Under the pieces are notes generated by a model. That model was not told the origin of the DNA, ran no database searches, and saw only the letters and a list, made by a program, of their open reading frames with translations. DNA of 23,977 bases, from the IMG/VR virus record IMGVR_UViG_3300009155_003259, positions 1-23,977 of that record; one strand, given 5' to 3'. Made by a program: the position numbers and the translations under genes. Shown piece by piece: positions 1,296 to 17,952 of this stretch; position 1 is the stretch's first letter, and every line of letters begins with the position of its first letter. Origin of the DNA: a virus.

Positions 1296-1298
1296 TGA

Positions 1299-1946: not shown

Positions 1947-1972
1947 CCTTGGATGTTGAGTATGCTATTTTG

Positions 1973-2101: not shown

Positions 2102-2108
2102 AGCATGT

Positions 2109-2137
2109 ATTGTATATGTTTATTTATACCTTGTCAA
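2109..2137 (-). promoter_or_regulatory. Overlapping early (sigma70) and T4-type late promoters
   Basis: Minus strand TTGACA (2132-2137), 17-base spacer, TACAAT (2109-2114). Inside the spacer lies a perfect T4 late -10 element TATAAATA (2121-2128). The two could serve the same small unit at different infection stages. Confidence 0.75.
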
Positions 2138-2189
2138 CCTCTAAGATTGATTTTTTTACAGTATTTTGGCAAAAAAGTTAAAGATATTT

Positions 2190-3292: not shown

Positions 3293-3293
3293 T

Positions 3294-3800: not shown

Positions 3801-3826
3801 ATACTCCAGTGTCTGTTTATGTGTTT

Positions 3827-3855
3827 ATTATAGCAGAACGGGCAATTCCGGTCAA
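3827..3855 (-). promoter_or_regulatory. Sigma70-type promoter of the HD hydrolase operon
   Basis: Minus strand TTGACC (3850-3855), 17-base spacer, TATAAT (3827-3832). The -35 lies in an inverted repeat CCGGTTGACCGG. The spacer closely resembles that of the promoter at 14253-14281 (shared CCGTTCTGC before the -10). Confidence 0.85.
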
Positions 3856-3871
3856 CCGGGTTGCATTACAA

Positions 3872-4924
3872 TTAAGTTTGAAATATAAACTCTTGAGATA
3901 AAATTCCACCTCTGCGGAGATTGATTAAAATTTCATCCCAGTTGGATTTAAACGCCCAGTTTTCAAAAGAACTTGGACGTTGATTTAGTCCATAAAATAT
4001 TAATGTGTGTAGTTCGTCGGAAAAATCACCGGTTGCATACCAAAATTTATCAGCAGTAGGATATGTTTTTTGTGGCTGGTGGGTTTTCTTGGGCATAAGA
4101 ATTGCTCCGGCAGGATATGTCAAAGTTTGAAACAAAGACAACATATTTTTTTGTTCTCTACCAGTAATAGTCTCTTTGAATTTTTTTGGAAAGTATCCTA
4201 GTGACTCAAACTTTGGTACGAGTTCTGACAGATATGCATTTAGAACAGCGGATCCTGAACCAGTACAAATCGATTCTGGAGTATCCATGATTTGATTAAA
4301 TGCTCTATCAATGTATAAAAATTTCCAACATTGTTGATCATCATCAAACCATATGTTAGGCTGTTGAAATCCAAACAAATCAAACTGATTTACATCATCC
4401 AATATGGGATAACATTGATTGTATTCATAAATGCCTTTCATCATGCCCGGCTCTACATAGCAAAAATGCATGAACTTCTTGTGCCACTCAGAGTCAGAGT
4501 AAAACCAATTAAAATAATTGTTGTTGCAATTGATTACTGTTAACTTAGTTGATGCAAATTTTTCTTTGTAGTTTTGTGCAATTGGAATAGCACATCGATC
4601 AACTTCGGCCAAATTACAAAACACAACCAGTGGATCAGTTGGAGTATATCGAATCATCACAATTTCGTCAAACACAATGTTGTATTTGTAGGCAGTATCA
4701 AGAACTATACGCGAGTCTGGCCCGCCCGAAAACCAAAAACGCAGATACGAATGTTGATCTCTAAGTTGAATCAAATGATCTCTAATTGCGTGTTCAAAAC
4801 TAATAGCTGGATTGATTGAGAATTTGTAATTGTCAAACCCGTTGCCCAATACAAATTTATAATCAGTAGTATAGTCTATATCCCATTGGGAATATACAAT
4901 TTTTGTATCATTGACGTAGTGCAT
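3872..4924 (-). CDS. PP-loop ATP pyrophosphatase-domain protein
   Basis: A 350-residue protein with a P-loop-like FSGGPDSRIVLD (about residues 64-75), the SGGxDS signature of PP-loop (N-type) ATPases that adenylate a substrate, as in asparagine synthetase, LarE and tRNA-thiolation enzymes. No glutaminase domain precedes it and no CX2C tRNA-thiolase motif is seen. The rest is aromatic-rich with no domain I recognise. The ATG overlaps the stop of the TctC gene (TAATG), so translation is coupled. It is the last gene of the transporter cluster. The locus is clearly AT-richer than the HD/ligase genes beside it, suggesting separate acquisition. The substrate cannot be inferred. Confidence 0.75.
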   Translation of the reverse strand: MHYVNDTKIVYSQWDIDYTTDYKFVLGNGFDNYKFSINPAISFEHAIRDHLIQLRDQHSYLRFWFSGGPDSRIVLDTAYKYNIVFDEIVMIRYTPTDPLVVFCNLAEVDRCAIPIAQNYKEKFASTKLTVINCNNNYFNWFYSDSEWHKKFMHFCYVEPGMMKGIYEYNQCYPILDDVNQFDLFGFQQPNIWFDDDQQCWKFLYIDRAFNQIMDTPESICTGSGSAVLNAYLSELVPKFESLGYFPKKFKETITGREQKNMLSLFQTLTYPAGAILMPKKTHQPQKTYPTADKFWYATGDFSDELHTLIFYGLNQRPSSFENWAFKSNWDEILINLRRGGILSQEFIFQT

Positions 4925-5787
4925 TATTTTTTGATTGATTTCAACAAAAAGTTAACTTGTTCGTCGGTTGATGCTGTAGACATTTTTGTAAAAAACTGTC
5001 TGGTCTTGAAATAATCTTGAAGCGGTTGAGTTTGCAACAAACGAGCCATATCAGACCGTAGTTCAGTTTGAAGATTGGCAGGAATATTTTTGGAAGAAGC
5101 ATAAACCATCATGTAATAATTCATTACACTTTGATTGATCTCTCCCAATGGGCGTGTGCTCAGTAACTCGGTTGGACCAGTATTGTGAGTACATACAGCT
5201 TGACCATTGCGTTCAATGACCTTGCCCGACGTTCCTAACACATACTCAGTTTCTTGTGCAGCAGCAGCACGAATCTGTGCCCCACTACCGCTGTAGATTA
5301 CAGTTTTGACTGTGCCAGGGCTGGCAGCTTTGATAGCATCAGTGACCCAATTCAAAGTGCTTGGGAATGACTGTACACTAATACGATATGTACCGGGCGT
5401 GGTAAAAATAGCATCAGGTGCAGTCTTACCAACAGCACAAAGATAATCGGGTGCATAATACCAAATTGATATCATATTTTGTGCAGTAGGCGGCACAAGA
5501 TAGCATTCATGATCAAGAGGCAACAAATGGTCTCTATTAGACCACACTGCTATTGTTGGTTTTTTGGTATTTTTAAGATCCTGTGCCATAGCTGCACAAT
5601 TGCCATTGTACAACACAATCGATGTATCCCATCCCAGTTGTTTAAGGCCGGGGGTTAGTAGTTCGGCAATATTTTGATCATTTGAACCGCCACCCCAGGG
5701 GATTAAAAATGTAAATGTTTTGTCAGCTGCGGACGCACCGGCAGCGATAACCATTGCAGTTACGAGAGTTAATAGTTGTTTAATCAT
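4924..5787 (-). CDS. tctC: TctC/Bug-type periplasmic solute-binding protein
   Basis: A 287-residue protein with a clear Sec signal peptide: basic start MIKQ, hydrophobic core, cleavage expected after ASA (about residue 20). The mature part begins with a beta strand and IPWGGGSNDQN (29-39), matching the P-(F/W)-x-x-GG-xx-D ligand loop of the Bug family. Bug/TctC proteins bind carboxylates and feed the tripartite tricarboxylate transporter (TTT). The adjacent TctA-type permease gene (20-base gap) supports this strongly. RBS AAAGG is 8 bases before the ATG. It is divergent from bacterial members, and several cysteines in the mature part are unusual. A carboxylate ligand is inferred, not shown. 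Confidence 0.8.
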   Translation of the reverse strand: MIKQLLTLVTAMVIAAGASAADKTFTFLIPWGGGSNDQNIAELLTPGLKQLGWDTSIVLYNGNCAAMAQDLKNTKKPTIAVWSNRDHLLPLDHECYLVPPTAQNMISIWYYAPDYLCAVGKTAPDAIFTTPGTYRISVQSFPSTLNWVTDAIKAASPGTVKTVIYSGSGAQIRAAAAQETEYVLGTSGKVIERNGQAVCTHNTGPTELLSTRPLGEINQSVMNYYMMVYASSKNIPANLQTELRSDMARLLQTQPLQDYFKTRQFFTKMSTASTDEQVNFLLKSIKK

Positions 5788-5807
5788 AGAGTATCCTTTC
5801 TAGTTAA

Positions 5808-7112
5808 TTATAAAACATATAGCTGTAAAAGTCTATATGCAGTTGGCCAAAAATACGGACCCAGCATCCATACAAAAATCATTGGAACTGGATCAATTTT
5901 TTTCTTGTACAAAAAATATCCCACCACAGTGGAAATTGCAAAAACAATCATGTAAAAGACTGAGCGGTCTGAGTCCATGCCCAAATACCAAACATCACAT
6001 GCTATCAATGCAAAAATAAAATAAAATACATATTGGTAATATCTGGCAAACCAGTTGATCATTTGAACAATATAATGCACACAAAATGCAAGACATGCCA
6101 CTACTCCAACTGATATACCCACGGCCATTTTCAAATAAGTATCCGCATTGAGTTGGTTAATCGACCAACCGCGATCGGTCAGCAAATTGACCACTATGGC
6201 CTCACTTGGTTGTATTGCCACACCAAATACCAATAATGGAAACAGCACAGATATCACAGCCGCATTGTCGGCTGCTTCCGCTGAACTTATTCTTGTCAAT
6301 GCAGTGCTAGATTTGATCTTGGATTCAACAAAATGTGCAGTAGCAGCACTTACTGTTACTCCAATCAACGGCAACAGTCCTGTTAAAAATCCAATAATAG
6401 TACCTCGGGCCATCACTGCGGCTGGTACCAATTGTACAGGTTGACTGGTATCAATTTTGTTGTGATCTACTGGACTTGCATTGGACATATCTGCCATGGC
6501 AGCAAACAACATAGGGATGGCATACATGCCTAACAGTATAGGAAGGAAAGGCAAGCCATTGACCAAAAATTCTACCCCCATGGTCAGGATAGATTTACCT
6601 AAAAACTGGTTGTATCCAATCAAGCTACCTACTAGCCCAATCACACACAATAGTAAATTTGTTTTGAATTTATTTCCAGACCAAGCCAGCGCAGAAACTG
6701 CTACCACGACTATAATGACAAAGAATACATCTGTGCGAAGAAAATATCGAAATTCAGTACCAAACTGAATTAACAAGCTCAGCATTGCTACAGATGCTAA
6801 CGTGGCAACAGCACTAGCCTGTCCAGTCCTATACAATGCAGTCCATAACAAGTCGGAGTTGATGATTTCTTGTCGTTCTTTAAGAACTGGAATGGCCGTG
6901 ACATCACCAGCAAGGCCAAGCCACAGCCCAACTACACTTGAGCTAAACTGCCCGCAAGTGATCATGGTAGCATAAAATGCAATCAAAGTGTTGAATTCTA
7001 AATGTGCCACAAATGGATATAGCATGATCATCATCACGCTGTCTCCTATTGCTGGCAACATTCCTACCAAGAGTCCTATTGGGATTGCAAGAAATATTAT
7101 AAAAAATTCCAT
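5808..7112 (-). CDS. tctA: TctA-type permease of a tripartite tricarboxylate transporter
   Basis: A 434-residue, very hydrophobic protein with about 11-12 membrane segments. The TctA layout is visible: an N-terminal GLLVGMLPAIGDS loop (TctA: G-x-PGxG), a segment with GQFSSSVVGLWLGLAGD (TctA: yyGGs...P) and a mid-protein repeat of the first motif, GFLTGLLPLIGVTVSA. The C-terminus ends in PMIFVWMLGPYFWP, like the TctA P-x-x-LG-x-x-LG-P region. With the TctC homologue next door this is a proton- or sodium-driven carboxylate importer. I found no separate TctB (small 4-helix subunit). It follows the oxygenase stop by 6 bases. A transporter of this type in a phage is unexpected. Confidence 0.8.
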   Translation of the reverse strand: MEFFIIFLAIPIGLLVGMLPAIGDSVMMIMLYPFVAHLEFNTLIAFYATMITCGQFSSSVVGLWLGLAGDVTAIPVLKERQEIINSDLLWTALYRTGQASAVATLASVAMLSLLIQFGTEFRYFLRTDVFFVIIVVVAVSALAWSGNKFKTNLLLCVIGLVGSLIGYNQFLGKSILTMGVEFLVNGLPFLPILLGMYAIPMLFAAMADMSNASPVDHNKIDTSQPVQLVPAAVMARGTIIGFLTGLLPLIGVTVSAATAHFVESKIKSSTALTRISSAEAADNAAVISVLFPLLVFGVAIQPSEAIVVNLLTDRGWSINQLNADTYLKMAVGISVGVVACLAFCVHYIVQMINWFARYYQYVFYFIFALIACDVWYLGMDSDRSVFYMIVFAISTVVGYFLYKKKIDPVPMIFVWMLGPYFWPTAYRLLQLYVL

Positions 7113-7118
7113 GACAAT

Positions 7119-7964
7119 TTATAATTGTATCTGCTTGACCAAGTGTTGGTTGATGTTATTGATGATCCAATGGTCTGATGAGTTATTAATCATGCCACTG
7201 ATTCTTAAAAACACCCTAGGAACCCAGGCAGTATTTGCTGTGTAGTGCATTCGATTACAATTATCAAATACCACTGCATCCCCAATTTTCCAATTGGTCC
7301 AATATTGATCATCTACTCCCAACACATGCCCGGGTACATAATCAGTCAGTGCCATCAACAATCTAATAGATGTCATGCCTCTGATTGACTTTGTGGACAC
7401 ATCAAATGGCAAATCTAATACTGTAGGATTGCTAGCAGCTATGTTCCGCCACATGGTCAACATAGTATCCACATGTGCTGGAAAAATACAAGCAGTTGGT
7501 TGATATTGTATTGCTACGGCACAATGCTCTAGATCAAATGCTTGTGCTATGGTTAATAATTCAGGATACGCTACAGGATTGATTATACTGTGTGTTACCG
7601 AATTGAATCCTGCGGCTTTTTGCATAGCATGCTCACCACCTAGATAATTGGTATCAAAAGAACTATTTGAAGCAGTAATATGCTTGTTGTCTTTGGAGAT
7701 TTTATTAGCTAGATCTATTAGAGTTGGGGATGTGACTGTGGCAATATGCTCTATTTTGTATTCTCTAATAGTGATACTGGTTGCTAACTTAGAAATTTTA
7801 TATACATCGGGTCCTAGAATGTCTATGAGATTTTCATAGTTGTCCATCCAAGAAAAATAATCTCGCACTGTTTTTATATTGGCATATTGTGTCTGATAAA
7901 AAGACAAGGCTGATACGGTCAAATTATCTACTTGAATTTCACGGCCAATAATATCAGTGTTCAT
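7119..7964 (-). CDS. 2-oxoglutarate/Fe(II)-dependent oxygenase-like protein
   Basis: A 281-residue protein. The iron facial triad is visible as H164-V-D166 (FPAHVD) and a distal H240 (NRMHYTAN), followed by R250 (VPRVFLRISG), the arginine expected to hold 2-oxoglutarate. Between them WKIGDAVVFDN is the typical strand before the distal histidine. This is the double-stranded beta-helix core of aspartyl/asparaginyl-hydroxylase-like or phytanoyl-type dioxygenases. I see no clue to the substrate. The ATG follows the phosphoesterase stop by 1 base; an upstream GTG start is possible but lies inside that gene. TctA follows directly, so it shares the transporter operon. Confidence 0.75.
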   Translation of the reverse strand: MNTDIIGREIQVDNLTVSALSFYQTQYANIKTVRDYFSWMDNYENLIDILGPDVYKISKLATSITIREYKIEHIATVTSPTLIDLANKISKDNKHITASNSSFDTNYLGGEHAMQKAAGFNSVTHSIINPVAYPELLTIAQAFDLEHCAVAIQYQPTACIFPAHVDTMLTMWRNIAASNPTVLDLPFDVSTKSIRGMTSIRLLMALTDYVPGHVLGVDDQYWTNWKIGDAVVFDNCNRMHYTANTAWVPRVFLRISGMINNSSDHWIINNINQHLVKQIQL

Positions 7965-7965
7965 G

Positions 7966-8511
7966 TCAGTGATGCTCTTTGATTGCACCCTTCAAGCCAA
8001 GTCGAATTGCTTCGTCCATGGAGATAGCAATTGCACCAGTGGAATCCATGCCAACATCCACAGCACGATATCGCTCCATTCCACTTGTGCCACCGTGAAG
8101 ATGACCATGCAAGTGTACTGAACCGCAATGCATTTGGTCCCATTCTGCAATAGGATAGTGAAACATCACAACTTTGATTTCGTTGAACTGCACATCCAGA
8201 TACTTGTGGACTTCGCAAAAACATGCACGGAATTCAGGATCCTGCAAGGTCTTGCGGTCGTGATTGCCTTCAATCAGGATTTTGTTGCCGTTGCAACGCA
8301 TCATGTATTCTGCTGCTTTGGCCGCTGGCAAGAACGCTACATCGCCTAGGATGTACACAGTATCTTCAGGAGCAATCATGGCATTCCATTCAATTACCAT
8401 TTGTTCGTTCATGTATGCAACATCGTCACGAAATCGTGCCCGTGTTACAGGGCAGAACTTCATGATGTTTTTGTGCCCAAAGTGCAAGTCAGATGTTACC
8501 CAAGTCTTCAT
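7966..8511 (-). CDS. Calcineurin-like metallophosphoesterase
   Basis: A 181-residue phosphoesterase with all metal-binding motifs in order: D8-L-H10 (SDLHFGH), GD57 (ILGDVAF), GNH84D, H118 (FHYP) and G136-H-L-H139. Small phage enzymes of this type can hydrolyse phosphodiesters or phosphomonoesters; the substrate is not evident. The start is set at MKTWVTSDLH because motif I must lie at the N-terminus and the ATG sits just after the stop of the preceding gene. It is second in the operon started by the promoter at 8771-8799. Confidence 0.88.
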   Translation of the reverse strand: MKTWVTSDLHFGHKNIMKFCPVTRARFRDDVAYMNEQMVIEWNAMIAPEDTVYILGDVAFLPAAKAAEYMMRCNGNKILIEGNHDRKTLQDPEFRACFCEVHKYLDVQFNEIKVVMFHYPIAEWDQMHCGSVHLHGHLHGGTSGMERYRAVDVGMDSTGAIAISMDEAIRLGLKGAIKEHH

Positions 8512-8512
8512 A

Positions 8513-8764
8513 TTATTTCTGTTTTGTTTGGCCAATGCGGCTGGCCTTATTCCAGGTGTACGCTACCCCATCAGGAGTCTTACCATCCACCACAGCATCC
8601 ACACCAGGTTTGCCCACGTGGTTGGGATCTTCTGATACCATGGTAACAAAGATCATGCCCAGCTTGCGAAAGGCCTCGGTATACTTCAATGCTTCGTTTA
8701 GGGTAACGGCATCATGTGCGTGTGACCAATTGGTCACAGGATCTGTATAGTAGATTTTAAACAT
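8513..8764 (-). CDS. Small hypothetical protein, first gene of the transporter operon
   Basis: An 83-residue protein starting MFKIYYTDPVTN. I do not recognise the family. It may fold as alternating beta and alpha elements. The ATG lies only 6 bases beyond a perfect TATAAT box, so the mRNA should start at or next to the ATG (leaderless); an upstream in-frame ATG would overlap the promoter. The operon behind it holds a phosphoesterase, oxygenase, TctA, TctC and the PP-loop protein. Confidence 0.75.
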   Translation of the reverse strand: MFKIYYTDPVTNWSHAHDAVTLNEALKYTEAFRKLGMIFVTMVSEDPNHVGKPGVDAVVDGKTPDGVAYTWNKASRIGQTKQK

Positions 8765-8770
8765 AACCCT

Positions 8771-8799
8771 ATTATATAGCATAGCACTATTCAAGTCAA
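8771..8799 (-). promoter_or_regulatory. Sigma70-type promoter of the transporter operon, leaderless
   Basis: Minus strand TTGACT (8794-8799), 17-base spacer, TATAAT (8771-8776), then only 6 bases to the ATG at 8764. It fills the space after the stop of the amidotransferase-like gene. Confidence 0.85.
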
Positions 8800-8800
8800 G

Positions 8801-9463
8801 CTATGTTGACATAAGGGTGTGGGTAAATTGCAACAACAGTTGATGATGCAGTCCTTGATGCCAATGTGGTGCTAGATATTGCCAGGGTTTTTGATACCAT
8901 AATCGGGTACTTTCTAAATGACAACCAATCACCCCAACTCTGTTTTGAATGATAGCCATTGGGTCACCATTTGCATATCGACCCACAGTGGTAAATTTGG
9001 TCTCATCACCAATCAGGGCACACCCGTCCCAGAAGAACATGTTATGCGGTTGGCCTTGCCAATCAATTGCGGTAACAGTTCCGTAACTTCTACGTACCTC
9101 AGCACCCGGACGTTTGATGTATTGTTCGCACTTTACGTCCTGCAAAATATCAAAAAACCAATGCCCGGCCCAGTATGCTCCCATGCAAATGCCCAAGTAT
9201 CTGCCGCCGGATTCCACAAAATCAGCTATCATGTTGGCTTGTTTACGCAGGAAGAAATCATAGTAGCGATCAGCTTCGCCAATCCCCCCTGGAAACACAA
9301 CCATTGCTGCCTGTGCCAACAAGTCTGAATTTAGAGTTTTTTCGTTGAATCTCTGTACGCGATAGTGACTGCCTAGACTCTTTTCTACCCCATCACAGCT
9401 TTGATTGCTGCATTCAGGATGATGAGAGAACAAGGCAATCAGGGGTTTATGGGCATCCAGCAT
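8801..9463 (-). CDS. Class I glutamine amidotransferase-like protein (BPL_N type)
   Basis: A 220-residue protein with the class I amidotransferase fold: FPGG at 57-60 (oxyanion loop), the nucleophile elbow GICMGAYWAG with C93, and H182/E184 in GCHLESTRLWY as candidate catalytic partners. The pattern best fits the N-terminal domain of fungal biotin-protein ligases (BPL_N), whose stand-alone bacterial relatives have no settled role. A hydrolase or glutaminase activity is likely, but a partner synthetase is not adjacent. It has no Shine-Dalgarno; a late-promoter-like motif shared with the radical SAM gene at 537-1295 ends 4 bases upstream of the ATG. Confidence 0.75.
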   Translation of the reverse strand: MLDAHKPLIALFSHHPECSNQSCDGVEKSLGSHYRVQRFNEKTLNSDLLAQAAMVVFPGGIGEADRYYDFFLRKQANMIADFVESGGRYLGICMGAYWAGHWFFDILQDVKCEQYIKRPGAEVRRSYGTVTAIDWQGQPHNMFFWDGCALIGDETKFTTVGRYANGDPMAIIQNRVGVIGCHLESTRLWYQKPWQYLAPHWHQGLHHQLLLQFTHTLMST

Positions 9464-9467
9464 GTTG

Positions 9468-9486
9468 TTATTTACACACTATTTTG
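9468..9486 (-). promoter_or_regulatory. Shared 19-base start-proximal motif, copy B (late-promoter-like)
   Basis: Minus strand CAAAATAGTGTGTAAATAA, ending 4 bases before the ATG of the amidotransferase-like gene. It matches 18 of 19 bases of the copy at 1299-1317. Confidence 0.5.
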
Positions 9487-9496
9487 CCCTGTATTT

Positions 9497-9880
9497 TTAA
9501 TCTGTGTCTGGCCAAGGTTCTACCAACCACCCTATAGCAAATAGGTCTTGACGTATTTCATCAGTAACGGTACTTTCCCCTACGTAGCCTTTGGTGCCAG
9601 TCTCATCACCATTGCCTAGTCCGCCGCCCATGCCCGAACAATACCAGTCCATGTAGTCGCCTTGCTTGCGTATATCAGCAATGATCCCGCCAGCTGATCG
9701 CCAACTACGTGTCCATTTTAAATCTGCAACTCTAGGCCAAACATCGTTTTTTTGAAACACATTATTACACATGGCCGCATAGAGATTCTGGGCGTATGTA
9801 TCGCTGTCAATCACTTTCTTTGCCATCCATCCAGATGTGACAATGTCCTTGTCGAGATCATTGGCAGGATCTTGTCTCAT
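9497..9880 (-). CDS. Conserved phage protein, unknown function
   Basis: A 127-residue protein. The centre, WRSAGGIIADIRKQGDYMDW followed by YCSGMG, and the C-terminal VTDEIRQDLFAIGW resemble a small protein that recurs in T4-like phages of aquatic bacteria, with no known role. The ATG overlaps the stop of the next upstream gene (ATGA at 9877-9880), so translation is coupled. It has no membrane segment or signal peptide. Confidence 0.75.
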   Translation of the reverse strand: MRQDPANDLDKDIVTSGWMAKKVIDSDTYAQNLYAAMCNNVFQKNDVWPRVADLKWTRSWRSAGGIIADIRKQGDYMDWYCSGMGGGLGNGDETGTKGYVGESTVTDEIRQDLFAIGWLVEPWPDTD

Positions 9881-10080
9881 TGCAAAGTGCGGGATTCATC
9901 CTGGAGATCGGCTTTGACTCGATCCGGCAGATCCGCAAAATCAACTTCCGTGCTTTGTGCAGCAAGTTCTTCGGGAGTCATGGATCCAAACATTTCTTCA
10001 AGTTCTGTTATCAAGGCATCTAGTTCTTCTTGAGAGCCATCAAAGTCATCAAACGCTCCTGGTGCAAACTGTACTTTCAT
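9877..10080 (-). CDS. Small acidic protein, unknown function
   Basis: A 67-residue, strongly acidic protein (MKVQFAPGAFDDFDGSQEEL...) of mostly helical character. Acidic phage mini-proteins can be inhibitors or DNA mimics, but nothing here proves that. The start has AAGGA 7 bases upstream; the frame extends further upstream only into the tRNA gene. It is coupled to the next gene by an ATGA overlap. Confidence 0.75.
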   Translation of the reverse strand: MKVQFAPGAFDDFDGSQEELDALITELEEMFGSMTPEELAAQSTEVDFADLPDRVKADLQDESRTLQ

Positions 10081-10099
10081 AATGTATCCTTGTGATAAA

Positions 10100-10177
10100 T
10101 GGTGGGACCTCTGTGAGTCGAACACAGCACCAACAGATTATGAGTCTGCTGCTCTAACCAACATGAGCTAAGGTCCC
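10100..10177 (-). tRNA. tRNA with CAU anticodon (elongator Met or Ile2)
   Basis: Cloverleaf on the minus strand: acceptor GGGACCT/AGGTCCC, D-stem GCTC/GAGC with GG in the loop, anticodon stem GCAGA/TCTGT with loop CTCATAA, T-stem CTGTG/CACAG, discriminator A and encoded CCA; 78 bases. It lacks initiator features. The anticodon CAU could be elongator Met, or Ile2 if C34 is changed to lysidine; sequence alone does not settle it. It lies between two small protein genes, apart from the other tRNAs. Confidence 0.93.
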
Positions 10178-10187
10178 TGGTTATTTG

Positions 10188-10385
10188 TTACGCCAAACGA
10201 TCTACGTTCTGGCCATTGCGATTCATGCGCCTGTTCATTTCTACATGTTTGGCTTCGTCAATTTCATGTTGATGTTTGATTCGTACCTCATCCTGCAAAC
10301 GTTCAAGGTGACGGCGATCCACACGGCGAATCTCTTGAAGCCTGTAAACTTCGTTATTGTGTGTGTGGATGCTGTCAACTTTCAT
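10188..10385 (-). CDS. Small charged helical protein, unknown function
   Basis: A 65-residue protein starting MKVDSIHTHNNEV, very rich in Arg, His, Glu and Asn and probably one long helix. The ATG at 10385 is preferred to an upstream in-frame TTG; Shine-Dalgarno is weak. The stop lies 11 bases before the 5' end of the CAU tRNA. I do not recognise the family. Confidence 0.65.
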   Translation of the reverse strand: MKVDSIHTHNNEVYRLQEIRRVDRRHLERLQDEVRIKHQHEIDEAKHVEMNRRMNRNGQNVDRLA

Positions 10386-10407
10386 AATATTACTTATCAA
10401 TCACTTG

Positions 10408-10557
10408 CTATTCCGAATAGCTGTCAACTTCTGTTAACTCGGCCACTTGATACACCATGTCCACTGACACATCCAACATACCAGAAATGGTCACTGGTCG
10501 GTAACCTTCTTCAAGTAGAGATCTAATCTCTTCAATCAGTTGTTTTATTTTGCTCAT
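10408..10557 (-). CDS. Small HTH-like protein
   Basis: A 49-residue protein starting MSKIKQLIEEIRSLLEEG. The middle (YRPVTISGMLDVSVDMVYQV) has the spacing of a helix-turn-helix in which a position-sensing helix is followed by V-x-x-DMVYQV, so it may bind DNA as a mini-regulator. RBS AAGGA lies 7 bases before the ATG, which is preferred to a further upstream in-frame ATG. It follows the kinase gene by 32 bases. Confidence 0.65.
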   Translation of the reverse strand: MSKIKQLIEEIRSLLEEGYRPVTISGMLDVSVDMVYQVAELTEVDSYSE

Positions 10558-10589
10558 ATTATTCCTTTTGTTTTGAAATTCACATGGGT

Positions 10590-11053
10590 TCAACTAGCAT
10601 TCCAAATCTCTGCATATCCTTCTTCTTCGGTAGGTTCTTCCCAACCGTCGATCATGCTACGCATAACATGATCGGAATGCTCTTTCCAACACGGCTGGCC
10701 AACCGCCGAGCCAGTTCTTCAGCCTCGGGGGTGCGAAACACCACAGCAATATGTTCATAGTCAGGCAACATGCGGAACTTCTTCAGACGACTTTTGACTG
10801 TGGTTGAGGTCTGATCCCAAATTATACTATGATTGTGCTCACGTGCAAATACAACTTGTTCAGTCATCAAGTCCACAGCCGTGGGCATGTACTCCTTGAA
10901 CACTTGATTGTAGGTTTTGCCTTGTGCTCTGGCATAGTCTTCCACAAACGCATCTGTACTGACTATAGTCAGCCCCAGGGCCCAGTCTTGGTCCCGTATC
11001 CAGGTGCTTTTGCCTGCGCCCGGAACTCCTACTAATACGTAAACTTTTGACAT
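10590..11053 (-). pseudogene. Polynucleotide kinase (T4 Pnk kinase-domain type), frameshifted
   Basis: A P-loop kinase of about 154 residues when the frame is repaired. Walker A is GVPGAGKST (residues 8-16), STDAF matches the T4 Pnk NRDDY region, and RLASRVGKSIP is the lid. The frame then runs into an early stop at 10652. In the -1 frame from about 10673 the sequence continues as DHVMRSMIDGWEEPTEEEGY to a stop at 10590. T4 Pnk has VPIDVLRSM at this point, so the shifted frame is the true C-terminus and one base appears to be missing. The start is set at MSKVYVLVG, where TAATG overlaps the previous stop and GAGAAG precedes it. The enzyme would phosphorylate 5'-OH RNA ends before ligation. It has only the kinase half; no phosphatase domain is present. 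Confidence 0.8.
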
Positions 11054-11166
11054 TACTTCTCTACAATTCGATATTGACTTTTTGGATAGCGTTCTTGCAG
11101 CCATTCAATCAGGCCTGGCTCCCAAGGCAGTTTAACTGATTCATAACGATTGGTAATGTATTTCAT
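11053..11166 (-). CDS. 37-residue protein coupled to the kinase
   Basis: A short ORF starting MKYITNRYESVKLPWEPG and ending YRIVEK. Its ATG overlaps the stop of the upstream gene (4 bases) and its stop overlaps the kinase ATG (TAATG), so it sits tightly in the operon, the best evidence that it is real. Basic and aromatic-rich; no family recognised. Confidence 0.65.
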   Translation of the reverse strand: MKYITNRYESVKLPWEPGLIEWLQERYPKSQYRIVEK

Positions 11167-11387
11167 TCTTCAACTCTGAAATGTTCTTTAATATCGTTAA
11201 CCAACTCAACCGCCCATACTGGTTCGGCATATTGAGCCGCTTCATTCCCAATCTTATCCAAACATTCCTTCACAATCAACTCGGCGAACTTTTCTGCATT
11301 GAGCAGACGAATCTTTGTATCTGGATCTGCCATGTTAGGCACCCATTCCATAGACTGTTCTTTTAGTTGTCGAATTCGTTCATTCAT
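11163..11387 (-). CDS. Small hypothetical protein
   Basis: A 74-residue protein starting MNERIRQLKEQSMEWVPN, largely helical and acidic. The first ~15 residues and the FAELIVKECLDKI stretch resemble short proteins scattered through T4-like and other large phages, with unknown role. Overlaps its upstream neighbour by 4 bases and the 37-residue ORF by 4. Confidence 0.75.
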   Translation of the reverse strand: MNERIRQLKEQSMEWVPNMADPDTKIRLLNAEKFAELIVKECLDKIGNEAAQYAEPVWAVELVNDIKEHFRVEE

Positions 11388-11605
11388 TCTTCGTGTCCTA
11401 GTGTTTGAGGGCTGTGATCCAGTCGATCAATGTCGTTTTCACGATAGAAGAATGCATCTGGATCCGTTATTGTAACACACAAATCGCTATGATGCAAGTC
11501 ATAATCCACAAAGTTGTGTTCAGAATCATACACTCTGAATTTGTAAACACCGGCAGCAACTTGGATCAACACACCTTCCGTACCATCAGCTGACGTTGGT
11601 TTCAT
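11384..11605 (-). CDS. Small hypothetical protein, beta-rich
   Basis: A 73-residue protein starting MKPTSADGTEGVL. The first half (GVLIQVAAGVYKFRVYDSEH) looks like paired beta strands; the second half is acidic with two His-Asp patches. RBS AGGAGAG is 5 bases before the ATG, a strong site. No family recognised. Confidence 0.75.
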   Translation of the reverse strand: MKPTSADGTEGVLIQVAAGVYKFRVYDSEHNFVDYDLHHSDLCVTITDPDAFFYRENDIDRLDHSPQTLGHEE

Positions 11606-11619
11606 TGTTCTCTCCTAAA

Positions 11620-11805
11620 TTAAGTATCGCCTAATTGCCGTTCAAGATCTTCAATACGTTTTTCATAAACATCACGTAATGCATCTCGTTCATCCTCTAC
11701 GCTGGATAGTTCTTGTTGTAGATAAGTTATTTGTCCACGCAACCAAATAATCTGTTGCTCAAGTTCAAATATCTTTTCTCGTTGTGGATCTTCATCCTCG
11801 ATCAT
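11620..11805 (-). CDS. Small coiled-coil protein
   Basis: A 61-residue protein that is nearly all coiled coil: heptads of Leu/Ile run from FELEQQIIWLRGQ to RIEDLERQL. It is a likely dimerising or scaffolding mini-protein of unknown partner. RBS GGAG 7-8 bases upstream of the ATG. Confidence 0.7.
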   Translation of the reverse strand: MIEDEDPQREKIFELEQQIIWLRGQITYLQQELSSVEDERDALRDVYEKRIEDLERQLGDT

Positions 11806-11845
11806 TCTTCAACTCCAAAATGTTGTTTCAATCTTGCTTTTGCTA

Positions 11846-12187
11846 TTATTCGGCATGCCAGTTACCTTGCAAACAATGCAAGAATTCATGCCCTACTGTA
11901 CGCATATCTACCTTTTCAGGCAAAATTATCAAGCATCGATCTGGCCATTGCCAAGTACAAGCCAATGCACCGTTGGGAAATCCACCCAATCCAAAATTTC
12001 GACTTTGAGCATTGCAGACTGCTTGAATTTCGGACGCTTTGACATACTGTATCTCTACTGTTGTTTTGTTGGTACTATTTTTTTTCATATCAAACACACG
12101 ACTACCAGAATTATCAAAATTCCACTGTGCGTTTGCAGTGCTTGCAACCAAACATATTGCAACAGATAACACAAGATTTTTCAACAT
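11846..12187 (-). CDS. Secreted mini-protein with HExxH metallopeptidase motif
   Basis: A 113-residue protein with a clear signal peptide (MLKNLVLSVAICLVASTANA, cleavage expected after residue 20). Near the C-terminus VGHEFLHCLQGNWH contains HEFLH, the HExxH zinc motif of metallopeptidases, with a further His 9 residues on (HEFLHCLQGNWH) that could be the third ligand. Four cysteines in the mature part could form disulphides in the periplasm. It is too short for a classical zincin, so it may be a minimal protease fold or use the site structurally. It sits beside a small two-helix membrane protein. Role at the envelope is inferred. Confidence 0.7.
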   Translation of the reverse strand: MLKNLVLSVAICLVASTANAQWNFDNSGSRVFDMKKNSTNKTTVEIQYVKASEIQAVCNAQSRNFGLGGFPNGALACTWQWPDRCLIILPEKVDMRTVGHEFLHCLQGNWHAE

Positions 12188-12192
12188 AATTA

Positions 12193-12465
12193 TTACTTAA
12201 TTTGAAATAAACAATACACACTCAAGGCAAAAACAGCCACAAACCCAGCTGTGTCAATCAGTTCAGAATACGATCCAGTCTTGCGAAGTGCCTGTGCAAT
12301 TAGATCAGTCAGTCGTTTAAAACTCTGATTTAAATTGCCATTGAATATCCCATCAATGATCAAGGCCACAGCCATAGCAAACATTGCCACAGTTACAACA
12401 TTCAACAATATCAACCATTGATAATAAGATATCCACTTGTCAAGATCTTTTATGTAGAATGACAT
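12193..12465 (-). CDS. Small two-helix membrane protein
   Basis: A 90-residue protein with two hydrophobic helices, about residues 16-40 (WLILLNVVTVAMFAMAVALI) and 69-88 (AGFVAVFALSVYCLFQ), separated by a ~28-residue charged loop. Its ATG overlaps the RNA ligase stop (TAATG). Size and topology allow a holin-like or superinfection-exclusion role, but no sequence signature supports either. It pairs with the secreted HExxH protein, which follows after 5 bases. Confidence 0.7.
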   Translation of the reverse strand: MSFYIKDLDKWISYYQWLILLNVVTVAMFAMAVALIIDGIFNGNLNQSFKRLTDLIAQALRKTGSYSELIDTAGFVAVFALSVYCLFQIK

Positions 12466-13490
12466 TACTTTTCTCCCAGCAGGTACCGGTTAGAGATAGC
12501 CTTGAAGCTCATGCCACCATGCACTTGCTTGAACACAATGCCTTCACGTTCGGGTCCTGTGATATCGCCCATCACACTCTTGCCTTCAGCAAACTTTAGG
12601 ATTTCTTCCACAGAGCCTGTACCAAGATTCCAATCAGTGTGCAGCACAGGAACATGCAGCAGTCCCATCTCCTCAACAAGAGCACGACGGAACATGGGGC
12701 TCAAGTATGCACCACCAAACACATCGTAGATATCAAACACACGGAACTCTGGGTCACGCAGTTTATAGATGTTGCCTTGGATGCCGGGCCCGATTAGTTC
12801 GCCTTGAACAGCAACATTCTTGTTGCCAAACAAACCGCGAATCTTTGCTTCAATCCCATCACGACGGGCCACAGCCCATAATGTGTTGCCTTCAGTTTCC
12901 TTTAGGTCCAGGTTACGTGAGCAAACACCGAATTCACCATCGATCAAGTACACAGTCATTGAAGAACCTTCCAGCTTTTCAGTAACTTCATACTCAGTGC
13001 CTGATTCGGCAGCAGCACGGATTTCTGCAACTAGATTTTGTGCCCGTTCTTGGTCAGTCTTGGGAATCTCAGATGGAAAGTTACCACGTGCCATACCAGC
13101 CAACTGAGCATTCATGGGCATTTCCCACTTCACAATGTTCAGCAATTCAGTAACATCTTCGCCCTCAACGAAAGAATTTGTTTGTGGAATAACATCATCA
13201 AGATTCAACAGCAAACCTTGAGATAGTTGGCCACGCAGCTTTACAGTACGCAGACGTTCACCGCGGATGCCTTCGAACTCACGAGGCTCCTTGCCCTTGC
13301 TTAGGAAAGCAGCAATCTCAGTAGGAATCCAAGAGTCAATCTCGCAATACACTGCACGATCGCCTACAGCAAACTCGCCCTTCTTTACCACTACCTTCCA
13401 TCCACCAATGGTAGCGCACTCAATTGCATCTGCACCTTCAATCGGGGTGAGTGCATCAATCTTACGAATAGTAGCCATCTTGCGAGTCAT
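12465..13490 (-). CDS. RNA ligase, DraRnl/Rnl5 type
   Basis: A 341-residue ligase of the Deinococcus Rnl (DRB0094, Rnl5) type. The first ~110 residues form the OB-like N-terminal domain typical of that family (VVVKKGEFAVGDRAVYCEID). The nucleotidyltransferase domain has motif I K172-L-E-G (the lysine adenylated by ATP), CSRNLDL, the NVAVQGELIG motif, EGIVFK (motif IV) and FKAISNRYL (motif V). Rnl5 enzymes seal 3'-OH RNA nicks, preferably RNA on a template, unlike Rnl1. RBS AAAGGA lies 7 bases before the ATG; it overlaps its neighbours at both ends (ATGA, TAATG). Confidence 0.92.
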   Translation of the reverse strand: MTRKMATIRKIDALTPIEGADAIECATIGGWKVVVKKGEFAVGDRAVYCEIDSWIPTEIAAFLSKGKEPREFEGIRGERLRTVKLRGQLSQGLLLNLDDVIPQTNSFVEGEDVTELLNIVKWEMPMNAQLAGMARGNFPSEIPKTDQERAQNLVAEIRAAAESGTEYEVTEKLEGSSMTVYLIDGEFGVCSRNLDLKETEGNTLWAVARRDGIEAKIRGLFGNKNVAVQGELIGPGIQGNIYKLRDPEFRVFDIYDVFGGAYLSPMFRRALVEEMGLLHVPVLHTDWNLGTGSVEEILKFAEGKSVMGDITGPEREGIVFKQVHGGMSFKAISNRYLLGEK

Positions 13491-13648
13491 AAATTTCCTT
13501 TAACTTTTTTTGATTTGCACTGGTCTTGTTCAAACAAATCAATATAATAGAATCGTTTGTATTTTTCTAATCGTTCAGGGCTGTTACATGCATGGAAATA
13601 ACCCTGTACGCTAGTCTTAAATTTGCAGTCTTTACACTGATCAGGCAT
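13487..13648 (-). CDS. 53-residue cysteine-rich protein
   Basis: A short ORF starting MPDQCKDCKFKTSVQGYF and ending KVKGNL. C5-x2-C8 together with C21 and C44 gives four cysteines that could bind zinc or an Fe-S cluster. The stop overlaps the start of the RNA ligase (ATGA) and the ATG follows the upstream stop by 1 base, so it is operon-embedded. No family recognised; too short to class as a known zinc ribbon. Confidence 0.7.
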   Translation of the reverse strand: MPDQCKDCKFKTSVQGYFHACNSPERLEKYKRFYYIDLFEQDQCKSKKVKGNL

Positions 13649-13649
13649 T

Positions 13650-13856
13650 TTATTTCTTTCCAATCTTTGATACTACGTTAGCCTTGCTCACATGCAGTTG
13701 GTACAGGAACCTGCGGTACGCTCGCAATGAGGCAATGCTCATTGGATCTGTCTTGCCTTCAAGTTCGGCAATCTTTGCTTCTAACTCTTGTTCTTTTGCA
13801 CGGTGGCGCTCAATGTCTGCATTGAGCCCTTTTGTTTTGTTCCAAAAGAATTTCAT
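13650..13856 (-). CDS. Small coiled-coil protein, unknown function
   Basis: A 68-residue protein starting MKFFWNKTKGLNADIERH, with a coiled coil over residues 12-35 and a basic C-terminus. Start chosen at 13856 because AAGGAG lies 7 bases upstream; a longer in-frame start is inside the previous gene. Confidence 0.75.
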   Translation of the reverse strand: MKFFWNKTKGLNADIERHRAKEQELEAKIAELEGKTDPMSIASLRAYRRFLYQLHVSKANVVSKIGKK

Positions 13857-13866
13857 AACGTTCTCC

Positions 13867-14226
13867 TTATAATCCCAACAGTTCGCGTTCAAAATCAGTC
13901 AACTTGGCCAATGCTTCTTTCTTGGCTGCTTCACGCTCTGCTGCCTTACGACGGTCTTCGTCCAGCTGATCCAGGTCCCACATTAGGCTTTCCAAGTCTA
14001 TCTGGGCCTGCATAGAGTGTACTGGAGACAATGTCCAACTGTCACGCCCCTCGACCAGAAGGAACTTGGAGTTGCGTACTGTGAGACTAAAAGAGTTAGG
14101 ACTATTCGTAGCTCGTTCCAACTGTGCCATCAACAGGCCAGGGAAGGCAGCAACTTCTTCTGCTTCGCGCTGAGCCATAAATGCTTCATTCTCAGCTGTG
14201 AGTTCTGCTTTTGTCTTACGTGCCAT
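13867..14226 (-). CDS. Charged coiled-coil protein, unknown function
   Basis: A 119-residue protein (MARKTKAELTAENEAFM...) with helical ends and a central beta-like stretch (SFSLTVRNSKFLLVEGRDSW). The C-terminus is rich in Lys, Glu, Arg and Ala repeats. RBS AAGGAG is 6 bases before the ATG. It is first in the unit started at 14253-14281 that continues into the coiled-coil, Cys-rich and RNA ligase genes. Confidence 0.75.
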   Translation of the reverse strand: MARKTKAELTAENEAFMAQREAEEVAAFPGLLMAQLERATNSPNSFSLTVRNSKFLLVEGRDSWTLSPVHSMQAQIDLESLMWDLDQLDEDRRKAAEREAAKKEALAKLTDFERELLGL

Positions 14227-14252
14227 GATCAACTCCTTGTTGCGATAAGTGT

Positions 14253-14281
14253 ATTATAGCAGAACGGTGATTTCTGGTCAA
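14253..14281 (-). promoter_or_regulatory. Sigma70-type promoter before the coiled-coil/RNA ligase unit
   Basis: Minus strand TTGACC (14276-14281), 17-base spacer, TATAAT (14253-14258). The -35 box contains the TGA stop of the upstream GIY-YIG gene. Spacer similar to that at 3827-3855. Confidence 0.88.
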
Positions 14282-14622
14282 CCGTTCTGCTTCACACGCA
14301 CATCAGTGTTCAGTGCAGGTGTGTACTGAGCAATCAGCTCGCGTTCCAATTTGTGTGCAGCAGCTTTGCCACGCACAATGTCCACAATCACAGCGGTGAT
14401 GCTGTCAGCACCTGCCATGCGAATTGCTTCGTACAGGCACCAAGATTTGTCCTCAGTGCGCGAACGATAGATGTGTTTGTTAACACGGCTACGCAGGCTC
14501 ATGGGGATTGTGCGCTGAGTCTTTGCAGTGATACCAATGTAAAACTCTGTACCAATATGCAGAGCATACACAATATGAGTGCGATCAACACGCTTTTTAC
14601 GAGTGGCTTTTGTTGCTTCCAT
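14278..14622 (-). CDS. GIY-YIG nuclease-like protein
   Basis: A 114-residue protein with the GIY-YIG pattern: VYAL at 18-21 stands for GIY, YIGIT (28-32) for YIG, followed by the conserved RSRVNKHI stretch with arginine and a glutamate near the end (ELIAQY). GIY-YIG domains cut DNA with one metal ion and include homing endonucleases and repair enzymes. With no extra DNA-binding domain, it is a single-domain form like those of other large phages. The start sits 6 bases after the TATAAT of its promoter, so the mRNA is predicted to be leaderless. Confidence 0.75.
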
Positions 14623-14628
14623 ACACGT

Positions 14629-14657
14629 ATTATAGCCGATCTAGCAAATCCGGTCAA
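14629..14657 (-). promoter_or_regulatory. Sigma70-type promoter of the GIY-YIG gene, leaderless
   Basis: Minus strand TTGACC (14652-14657), 17-base spacer, TATAAT (14629-14634), 6 bases before the ATG. An inverted repeat CCACA-CAAT-TGTGG lies directly upstream of the -35 and may be an operator or a terminator stem. Confidence 0.85.
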
Positions 14658-14687
14658 CCACAATTGTGTGGCATTTTTACAACACTT

Positions 14688-15050
14688 TTACTGTGTATAG
14701 TTCTCAAGAAATCGGTCTAAATCCCCATACAGATTCGCTAGAAATGCTTCCTTGGATCCGTAAAATTTGATATTGGAATTCTTTCTATCTAAATTGAGAT
14801 AATATGGGTCTTGTAATCTTTGATCCAACTGTACCAGTAGTTTGGGACGTATTTGTTCCAGTCGAATATCAAAATTATAATGCTCGATATTCATTCGTTG
14901 CATCACAATATAACCATGGGGACTAAGTCGCATGCCTGCACCTTGACGAGAATTACGCCACCAAGTTTGCATGGCCCAATCTAATCCGGGACGTTGAGAT
15001 TCAGGATACTGCCTGATCAGTGCTTCAGTAATGGCTTGTTTATTTCGCAT
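14688..15050 (-). CDS. Conserved phage protein, unknown function
   Basis: A 120-residue protein starting MRNKQAITEALIRQYPESQR. The pattern WAMQTWWRNSRQGAGMRLSP, then GDLDRFLENY at the end, resembles an uncharacterised T4-like phage protein family. The start is placed at 15050, which overlaps the upstream stop; a longer reading frame would run through the upstream gene. About 65 bases separate its stop from the next gene and hold that gene's promoter. Confidence 0.75.
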   Translation of the reverse strand: MRNKQAITEALIRQYPESQRPGLDWAMQTWWRNSRQGAGMRLSPHGYIVMQRMNIEHYNFDIRLEQIRPKLLVQLDQRLQDPYYLNLDRKNSNIKFYGSKEAFLANLYGDLDRFLENYTQ

Positions 15051-15336
15051 TGGGATATATCTTATCCCCTTGCTTGAGTAATACCACAGAAAACTTGTCA
15101 GTTCTAAACTGAACATTTAGTTTACGTGCCAAATTGATTGCGTGTCCGCTGTTTGAGAACGAAACCTTTTTATACTTGGGACCAGGATACTGTGTGAGCA
15201 AGTTAGAAGTCTTGAGATTGATAGGTCGGCCATCAAAGAACACTGCCCAGATACCTTCACTGGCTAATACTTGCTCAGTTTTGTAGGTCTGCTTGTTGGT
15301 GTTCTCAATTAATACCGACGGTTTTGGACGACTCAT
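15040..15336 (-). CDS. Conserved phage protein, unknown function
   Basis: A 98-residue protein. The stretch YPGPKYKKVSFSNSGHAINL followed by ARKLN and FRTDKFSVVLL resembles small uncharacterised proteins of T4-like marine phages. RBS AGGAG is 7 bases before the ATG and a late-type -10 element (CTAAATAA) lies just upstream. Confidence 0.75.
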   Translation of the reverse strand: MSRPKPSVLIENTNKQTYKTEQVLASEGIWAVFFDGRPINLKTSNLLTQYPGPKYKKVSFSNSGHAINLARKLNVQFRTDKFSVVLLKQGDKIYPNAK

Positions 15337-15353
15337 TCATTATACTCCTACAT

Positions 15354-15361
15354 TTATTTAG
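15354..15361 (-). promoter_or_regulatory. Possible T4-type late promoter element
   Basis: Minus strand CTAAATAA, 18 bases upstream of the ATG of the gene at 15040-15336, which also has a good RBS. Resembles the late -10 consensus TATAAATA used by phage sigma factors, with one weak position. Confidence 0.4.
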
Positions 15362-15378
15362 CAGAAATATATGTAGTT

Positions 15379-15588
15379 TTAGAAGTCTTTGCTGCCCAGT
15401 TCCACCGTAATAACTTGTTCTTTCTGTACCTGTAACAAGGTATTTTGCATGTCAATCATGGCCAACAGTATCTTGGTTATGTCAGCATGTAGGTCTTTGG
15501 CATCCTTCATGGACATCATGAAGTCACGTTGGCCACGTGCTTCATGTGCCTTTACTGAATCAACAAACCGATTGATATGGATACTCAT
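15379..15588 (-). CDS. Small helical protein, unknown function
   Basis: A 69-residue protein starting MSIHINRFVDSVKAHEARG, mostly helical with a probable short coiled coil (ITKILLAMIDMQNTLLQVQ). The ATG overlaps the methyltransferase stop by 4 bases. Family not recognised. Confidence 0.7.
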   Translation of the reverse strand: MSIHINRFVDSVKAHEARGQRDFMMSMKDAKDLHADITKILLAMIDMQNTLLQVQKEQVITVELGSKDF

Positions 15589-16124
15589 TTTTTAATACCA
15601 TAAAAATATAAATCTTGCAGTTCCCAATGTACCGTTCTAAAATTCCATTCGTTAAAATGAAGATTAAAATCAATCTTGCTTGTGAAATCTTCAGCAGTTA
15701 AATTTTTGTAGTATTCCCATCCAACACTGGTGGTCAACGAGTGTGTTGGTGATGTTCTTGATGTACCGTGTTCTGCACGACCAGTGGTAGCACAGGTGAA
15801 TATCACTATGCCATTGTGTTTGCACATTCTTATCATGTTGATAAATGTTTCTAACCAATAAGGATTGTGTTCAAAACATTCTGAAGAAATCACCACATCA
15901 AAATGATTTGATGGGCCATCAAACTCCTGCCCGCCCACAACCAAGTCCACTCCTTTACCGGGTGCAACATCCAACCCAATGTGCTGTGATGTATTTTGAA
16001 TTATGGATCGAATTGATCCATTTACATCATAGCTACCTACTTCTAAAAGTTTTGGAAATTTAAAAAAATCTGGAAATCGATCTCTAATTTCCGCAATAAA
16101 TTTTTGTTGTGATACGTGCGACAT
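15585..16124 (-). CDS. SAM-dependent methyltransferase-like protein
   Basis: A 179-residue class I methyltransferase fold: motif I LLEVGSYDVNGS (about 26-37) holds SAM, IGLDVAPGKGVDLV is motif II and FDVVISSECFEHN (motif IV region) follows. Short for a nucleic-acid methyltransferase and without an NPPY catalytic motif, it resembles type 11 small-molecule or glycan methyltransferases. Substrate unknown. It lies between a MazG-like gene and a small helical protein with 4-5 base spacing. Confidence 0.8.
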   Translation of the reverse strand: MSHVSQQKFIAEIRDRFPDFFKFPKLLEVGSYDVNGSIRSIIQNTSQHIGLDVAPGKGVDLVVGGQEFDGPSNHFDVVISSECFEHNPYWLETFINMIRMCKHNGIVIFTCATTGRAEHGTSRTSPTHSLTTSVGWEYYKNLTAEDFTSKIDFNLHFNEWNFRTVHWELQDLYFYGIKK

Positions 16125-16129
16125 AGTTG

Positions 16130-16519
16130 TTAGGAAAATTTGTTAAAAGCACCTGTCTTTTTCAAGAATGGTTTCAAGTTTGGGGGTTCCCAACCTTGTG
16201 GTTTGAGTACCTTGCCATCTTCACGCTTGCGTACCTTGCCATTGGCTTCAATCTTTGCAAAATTAGTAGACATGACTTCTTTCCACGCCGCTTCTCCATC
16301 AAAGCCTGCACTATGTATAGCACCAATGGTAACAACCAGTATATCAATTAGTGCGTCCAATGTTTCAACTTGATCATCAGATAATGTTGCTTCTAACAAT
16401 TCTTGATATTCTTCACTAATGAGATTAACATACATGGCAAATTGTTTTTCGTCAAACCCGTCAACACTTTGATCACAGGCTCGCATAAATTTTTCTTGAT
16501 CACGGAAGAGATTTGACAT
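16130..16519 (-). CDS. MazG-like nucleotide pyrophosphohydrolase
   Basis: A 129-residue all-alpha pyrophosphohydrolase. SEEYQEL (35-41) is the EExxE metal-binding motif and ETLDALIDILV (52-62) the second acidic set, followed by a conserved NFAKI. The fold (MazG/PRA-PH) hydrolyses NTPs or dNTPs to NMP and PPi. Phage MazG has been proposed to affect ppGpp and to clean nucleotide pools; it could complement the HD hydrolase at 3294-3800. It overlaps its upstream neighbour by 20 bases. Confidence 0.85.
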   Translation of the reverse strand: MSNLFRDQEKFMRACDQSVDGFDEKQFAMYVNLISEEYQELLEATLSDDQVETLDALIDILVVTIGAIHSAGFDGEAAWKEVMSTNFAKIEANGKVRKREDGKVLKPQGWEPPNLKPFLKKTGAFNKFS

Positions 16520-16958
16520 TGGCTTCTTCTCGGGTGTAAAATGGACCTTGATACTGATAACGTTCTAGTGTAATCAGTTTGGGACTTTGTACAATAGCCC
16601 AGGTTCGGCGTTGCTTGACCTGATACCATCCGGCTGCAAACCACGAACGTGACTTGCGATTCTTGGTATACAATGGCAATTTGTGTTGCACATCCCAGAT
16701 GGGATTGTATACTCGAGATCCTGATGGATATCCTTGTACTTGAAAACTGGCAGATTCTCGATTGGGCTTGTTACCCACTGCTGGAAATTCAATATCAACT
16801 TGTTTGCGGATCATTGCAATGGTCTTGAATGGCATGACCCGATTGTTGATTCTGACTGCAAAACCATCTCCTGTGGCTTCTATGTTGCCGACCTTTTTAT
16901 CATCCTGTGTAAGAATGTAAAACTGATCTTTAACTATGGGTTTGGCTATAATTCTCAT
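16500..16958 (-). CDS. Conserved phage protein, unknown function
   Basis: A 152-residue protein. The segment VYNPIWDVQHKLPLYTKNRK followed by SRSWFAAGWY resembles a family seen near replication genes of T4-like phages; function unknown. It overlaps the exonuclease by 29 bases and the MazG-like gene by 20, so translation is coupled. RBS AAAGGAA lies 7 bases upstream of the ATG, inside the exonuclease gene. Confidence 0.75.
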   Translation of the reverse strand: MRIIAKPIVKDQFYILTQDDKKVGNIEATGDGFAVRINNRVMPFKTIAMIRKQVDIEFPAVGNKPNRESASFQVQGYPSGSRVYNPIWDVQHKLPLYTKNRKSRSWFAAGWYQVKQRRTWAIVQSPKLITLERYQYQGPFYTREEANVKSLP

Positions 16959-17952
16959 CTAGTGTTCCTTTATAGGTTTCGTTGAGCCAGCGAGCATACT
17001 GCTCTGCTGACTCAGATATCTTTGTGAGTTCGTACTTGCCGCAAAACTTCATGAATCTCACACCAACTTGACCAATGTCTTTGTGACTGATCTGTTCACG
17101 TATTGCACCATCTACTTTGTCTTTGATCTCTTTGGGTTGTGCAGTAAGATCAATCAGCACACGATTGCGTTCGTAATCGTCTTTCACACGATGTTCGTCG
17201 CCATTGTGGTCAGACCAACGCTGAAGCATGAGATTGTTCCAATTGAAGCCTTTAGAATTGCGGTCTTCGAATGCTTCTTGCAAACCAACTTTGTTTTTGG
17301 TGCCTTTGGTTCGCACACCAGGATAAGCCGAAAATACGTTGTCAGATGTATCACCACGCATGCATTTTTCAAACAACAGCCATTCTGGATCAGGAATTGT
17401 TTTGTCTGTCTTGGTCTTTTTGTCTTTCACACGTCGACCCTTGGCATCAAATATGCCTGTTACCGTGTGAAGTTCATCGGTAATGCCATTATATTGGCTA
17501 ACATTGGGTGCTAGTAATTGCACAAAATCTGTATCTGATGAAATCACGTAGTGCTCGTCCTGCGGATGCAAGGCTATCCAGCGAGCAATCACGTCGTCTG
17601 CTTCGGCTTCAGGATGTCGGATAACGCTACAGTTAGTACCTTCAGCCAAGTATTTAGTGAGGCTATCATAGGTCTCCCAAAACAATTTATCCTCTTCTTG
17701 TTCTGTGTCCGATAATGCAGCACGAGCCACAGCACGGTTTTTCTTGTAGGGACCATAAAAGTCCTTGCGCCATGATCTCCCTTCAAGTGCGAAAATCACA
17801 TGATCTGCTTGAAACTGTTTGTGTACTTTGTTCACACTGCTCATTACAATGTGTAAAGCATATCCTACTTTTTCCCAAGCATCGGCAGCACGGAAAACAG
17901 AGTGGCGAGCACGGAAAAAGGTATTAGCTGTATCAATCAGGAGATATCGCAT
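16930..17952 (-). CDS. T4 RNase H/FEN-type 5'-3' exonuclease
   Basis: A 340-residue flap endonuclease/5'-3' exonuclease, like T4 RNase H (305 residues). Acidic metal-binding residues are in order: D7 (LLIDTAN), EAEADD (115-120), SSDTDF (138-143) and RGDTSDN (199-205). In T4 it removes RNA primers and trims flaps on the lagging strand. RSWRKDFYGPYKKNR (59-73) is the basic region that contacts DNA. It overlaps the SGNH gene by 20 bases and the gene at 16500 by 29. This is the clearest core replication gene of the window. Confidence 0.9.
   Translation of the reverse strand: MRYLLIDTANTFFRARHSVFRAADAWEKVGYALHIVMSSVNKVHKQFQADHVIFALEGRSWRKDFYGPYKKNRAVARAALSDTEQEEDKLFWETYDSLTKYLAEGTNCSVIRHPEAEADDVIARWIALHPQDEHYVISSDTDFVQLLAPNVSQYNGITDELHTVTGIFDAKGRRVKDKKTKTDKTIPDPEWLLFEKCMRGDTSDNVFSAYPGVRTKGTKNKVGLQEAFEDRNSKGFNWNNLMLQRWSDHNGDEHRVKDDYERNRVLIDLTAQPKEIKDKVDGAIREQISHKDIGQVGVRFMKFCGKYELTKISESAEQYARWLNETYKGTLDENYSQTHS

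Follow-up and report, generated by a model that had tools for sequence, protein, structure and literature searches.

A one-base frameshift in a polynucleotide kinase-like gene is private to one virus record and adjoins a patch of foreign-looking sequence

The polynucleotide kinase (PNK)-like gene described here is broken by a one-base frameshift that is private to a single contig, and the break lies directly at one end of a 48-bp stretch of foreign-looking sequence. We consider a strain-chimera arising from metagenome assembly to be the most likely cause, with a probability of roughly 0.6. The stretch of DNA analysed, hereafter the window, is the entire 23,977-base virus record in IMG/VR. Although the frameshift is genuinely present in the record, it most likely does not reflect the biology of the phage.

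On the minus strand, an ATG at 11053 opens the zero frame of the kinase gene, which encodes 133 amino acids before a premature stop at 10652 (10652-11053, minus strand). Residues 1-127 of this product are homologous to its relatives, and the last six (IMLCVA) are off the family frame. The conserved kinase C-terminus, DHVMRSM…EIWNAS, lies in the -1 frame, whose product from 10673, DHVMRSMIDGWEEPTEEEGYAEIWNAS, runs for 27 residues to a stop ending at 10590 (10590-10673, minus strand). This displaced tail shares 25 of 27 residues with the C-terminus that the near-identical record L002 encodes in frame (BLASTP E 3e-18), which excludes an open frame arising by chance. Relative to all relatives compared, the window is one base short within 10673-10675, an interval inside which the exact base is not assignable. 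A preliminary description of the window had placed both frames and the tail correctly, and its proposal that the true C-terminus sits in the other frame is borne out by the relatives.

Scanned with the 133-aa protein, IMG/VR yielded 299 relatives, and the best 80 were fetched from the viral contigs. Most of the matches stop at residue 127 or 128, the point where the window leaves the family frame. In every one of the best 80 of 299, the kinase is a single uninterrupted frame of 153-156 amino acids that runs into the tail; the contrary case raised beforehand, natural homologues with an early stop and no tail, is absent from this set. Two near-identical records allow the comparison to be made over much longer distances. 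G002 (47,497 bases) aligns with window positions 1-18522 over 18,523 bp with 20 mismatches and 1 gap, and G001 (10,165 bases) aligns with positions 7450-17610 over 10,162 bp with 12 mismatches and 1 gap. Each is 99.9% identical to the window, and the single gap in both alignments is the kinase frameshift. Since the kinase is intact in both, the frameshift is private to this contig. Neither the best 80 of 299 relatives nor a junction-pattern search yielded the gap in any other record; the sole exact match to the junction pattern, L082, proved to be an unrelated sequence. Nor is the record generally rich in indels, which is ruled out by the one gap in 18.5 kb and by the state of the other genes: among the 35 reading frames covered by G002, the kinase alone is broken in the window, and the other 34 match G002 save for substitutions and one frame that runs off the G002 contig end. 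A distant blastn comparison of window positions 10000-12500 with cultured phages gave, among the matches listed (20 of 37 records), only short places at the tRNA.

The preliminary description recognized the frameshift and overlooked the cluster of substitutions that adjoins it. Eight positions within 10626-10673 (10626, 10627, 10629, 10632, 10647, 10648, 10656 and 10665) differ from the otherwise near-identical G002, and the gap at approximately 10674 borders them. In other words, 10626-10674 holds 8 of the 20 substitutions and the sole gap of the entire 18,523-bp alignment. The flanks on either side are free of differences for approximately 6.9 and 7.6 kb, the next differences lying at 3067 and 17533. 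When 20 differences were placed at random 20,000 times, 8 never fell within 40 bp, and the largest cluster was 4. G001 and G002 disagree with the window at the gap and at all eight patch positions; at every one of the latter, G004 as well as G001 matches the G002 allele. These observations bear on one possible explanation, an isolated one-base sequencing or consensus error independent of the patch. Single-base gaps are common errors in general, but the sole gap in 18.5 kb falls at the patch edge, and we estimate the chance of an independent placement so close at approximately 0.003 by length alone. A plain error or a simple deletion, both suggested earlier, is therefore a poor fit, and we regard the isolated error as quite improbable. 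The gap and the patch very probably share one cause.

The nature of the patch is indicated by comparison with a relative further removed, L003. Seven of the 48 patch positions distinguish L003 from G002, and at five of these the window has the L003 base; the agreement of five of the eight substitutions with L003 has a chance probability of approximately 3e-6. Across the patch the nearest allele is that of L003 (43/48), not that of G002 (40/48), and the gene upstream of the patch is identical to G002. Read in its true frame, the patch amounts to six codon changes, four of them synonymous. Because the changes so often equal L003 and are mostly synonymous, the patch is a diverged, natural and functional allele rather than noise; the sequence around it equals that of G002, and the frameshift falls at the boundary between the two. 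A burst of random mutation or poor sequence quality is ruled out on the same grounds.

Two further groups of differences from G002 were observed. A second, smaller cluster lies at 2588-2677 (minus strand), in a T4 Rnl1-like RNA ligase gene, with five mostly amino-acid-changing differences in 90 bp; G003 has the G002 alleles there and G004 has the window alleles where comparable, again a mosaic pattern. Two adjacent differences at 18502-18503, approximately 20 bases from the G002 contig end, are probably an artefact of that contig end.

We propose that in the virus population the PNK-like, kinase-only gene is normally intact and encodes 154 amino acids. The record holds a diverged relative's allele at approximately 10626-10673, with the frame breaking by one base where this stretch meets the main sequence. 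Most likely, the metagenome assembler merged reads or contigs of two co-occurring strains and mis-joined them at the patch, in which case no phage would carry the broken gene as such, and a complete 154-aa kinase would be produced. We infer, in particular, that the joining occurred in the computer and not in the cell. Two facts favour this reading: none of the relatives has a broken copy of the gene, and the gap occurs in no other record (best 80 of 299). The window also displays the local discordance typical of a strain-chimera, in that the patch segment matches another lineage than its flanks do. Related strains in metagenomes can give rise to chimeric contigs (PMC7299287), and the window resembles such contigs in that a segment with the allele of one strain is embedded in the contig of another, although here the comparison is made with the consensus sequence alone. 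A literature search for a similar case returned nothing specific. Against assembly, a real recombinant would give the same consensus sequence. Furthermore, searches of viral_contigs and genome_contigs gave no exact donor for the patch, and L003 and the window do not have long flanks in common at the patch edges.

A real event would be homologous recombination with a diverged relative over a very short tract, or a template switch assisted by a hairpin, that replaced approximately 48 bp and lost one base at the edge of this segment, leaving a phage variant with a truncated kinase that is probably inactive. Consistent with this, the patch matches natural alleles, and kilobases of identical sequence flank it, the outcome expected of a small gene conversion. 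Inverted repeats also meet exactly at the lesion: an imperfect repeat with 11-nt arms and a 4-nt loop ends there (10649-10674), and an outer repeat has 8-nt arms at 10596-10603 and 10674-10681. The changes at 10656 and 10665 would, by the geometry of pairing, make the inner hairpin more perfect. However, the intact alleles of L002 and L005 fold equally strongly, the template-switch version leaves four further L003-shared substitutions outside the hairpin unexplained, and a null allele should be rare given that the gene is intact in 80 of the best 80 of 299 relatives. The inverted repeats could fit a real templated event or a mis-join during amplification or assembly alike. We therefore consider a real event possible but less likely than a mis-assembly. 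Much the same holds for its hairpin-associated form, in which a natural phage population exchanged approximately 48 bp for a diverged allele by micro-recombination or template switching and broke the frame in the same step.

The preliminary description had also raised programmed -1 ribosomal frameshifting, by which the full protein would be made from two frames. The tail frame can be read back to codon 112 without a stop, and the zero and -1 frames overlap by approximately 60 nt. The region also folds stably (z -3.9). Nevertheless, a search of the overlap for a slippery heptamer (X XXY YYZ) found none, in agreement with what had been noted from the sequence. A two-frame organisation is not conserved among homologues: all of the best 80 of 299 relatives are single-frame, and none needs a shift. 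The fold itself was rejected as a recoding signal, as it is also present in the intact L005 (z -4.0) and L002 (z -3.7) and is weak in others. The missing heptamer and the single-frame relatives rule programmed frameshifting out for practical purposes, and we assign it a very small probability.

In virus records derived from metagenomes, broken genes and apparent frameshifts are easily misread as pseudogenes or recoding. Because the break is private and lies at a strain-mosaic junction, it should be taken neither for a lost RNA-repair gene nor for programmed frameshifting. Should the junction be real, it would represent very short-tract recombination inactivating a phage gene, and if the hairpin-associated event were true, a gene-inactivating gene conversion would have been caught in the act in an RNA-repair-type kinase.

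A predicted role of the kinase in RNA end repair is plausible because the window also contains two different RNA ligase genes, at 2402-3292 (minus strand; RNA_lig_T4_1) and at 12465-13490 (minus strand; phrog_968 type with a PHA02142 OB-fold). A calcineurin-like phosphoesterase (7966-8535) lies within the same 24 kb, and these four genes possibly form a dispersed RNA-repair set. The window has other contents as well. A full-length TctA-family tripartite tricarboxylate transporter membrane protein is encoded at 5808-7112 (minus strand; Pfam PF01970, E 1.4e-40), beside a secreted protein (4924-5787, minus strand) that has no Pfam match and by eye resembles a TctC-type binding protein. Both genes are approximately 97% conserved in G003, a relative of 125 kb. 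It is unusual for a virus contig to encode a nutrient transporter. Three radical-SAM proteins (537-1295, 19865-20728 and 22345-23955, minus strand), two above the Pfam cut-off and one weak and QueE-like by eye, occur with a methyltransferase (20725-21504). Genes for tRNA-Gln(ttg), tRNA-Leu(caa) and tRNA-Met(cat) are located at 376-535 and 10100-10177 (minus strand).

On the strength of sequence comparison and a structure model, the product is best called a kinase-only PNK-like P-loop kinase, for which 5'-OH RNA or DNA ends are a putative substrate. The model, of the intact relative L002 with a 30-sequence alignment, reached a mean pLDDT of 85.9 and a pTM of 0.78 (the other four models, 60-82). 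It has the fold of a P-loop kinase. The displaced tail supplies helix 128-136 and the final strand (149-152) of this fold, and the lesion would remove both. When searched with Foldseek, its top 14 matches were PNK kinase domains, the closest being Clostridium thermocellum Pnkp (E 6e-9), mammalian PNKP (approximately 1e-8) and T4 Pnk (4e-6). All 30 members matched phrog_505, polynucleotide kinase, and the phage polynucleotide kinase family scored 44 bits with the intact L002 versus 33 bits with the 133-aa frame of the window. In a sequence-profile search of the PDB, phosphoseryl-tRNA kinase was best, followed by Pnkp1. Within the tail, M134, P141, E145, G146 and E149 are invariant among the 30 aligned members, and I150 and W151 are nearly so; K15 and S16 of the Walker A motif, D34, D80 and R121 are likewise invariant in the 30 relatives. 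The earlier label of polynucleotide kinase thus stands at the level of fold and family, but assignment as a T4-type Pnk is not supported.

In T4 Pnk, D35 is the general base, R38 the arginine that binds the substrate phosphate, and R126 the lid arginine. The window kinase resembles T4 Pnk (1ly1, 1ltq, 2ia5) in its Walker A motif GxxGxGKS and in having D34, D80 and R121 at the equivalents of D35, D85 and R126, as assigned by HMMER alignment to 1ly1, and the sequences match with an E of 0.011 (single) or 1.8e-4 (profile). In contrast, it has no C-terminal HAD 3'-phosphatase domain, the identity is approximately 21-24%, and the counterpart of R38 is a valine, V37, invariant in 30 relatives, although the alignment is weak and the arginine could come from elsewhere. 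The 5'-kinase domain of C. thermocellum Pnkp (4gp6/4gp7/4jst) is closest in fold (probability 1.00, TM 0.75/0.68), and its profile match (E 4e-5 to 4e-4) covers nearly the whole length, including the tail. However, identity is 19-20%, and the gene described here is a stand-alone gene of 154 amino acids without the joined phosphatase and ligase. O-phosphoseryl-tRNA(Sec) kinase (3adb, 3a4l) gives the best sequence-profile match (E 4.7e-7), which includes the tail 'IPxxVxxxMxxxFxxP', but it is longer, with a further C-terminal region, and its fold match is weaker than that of PNK.
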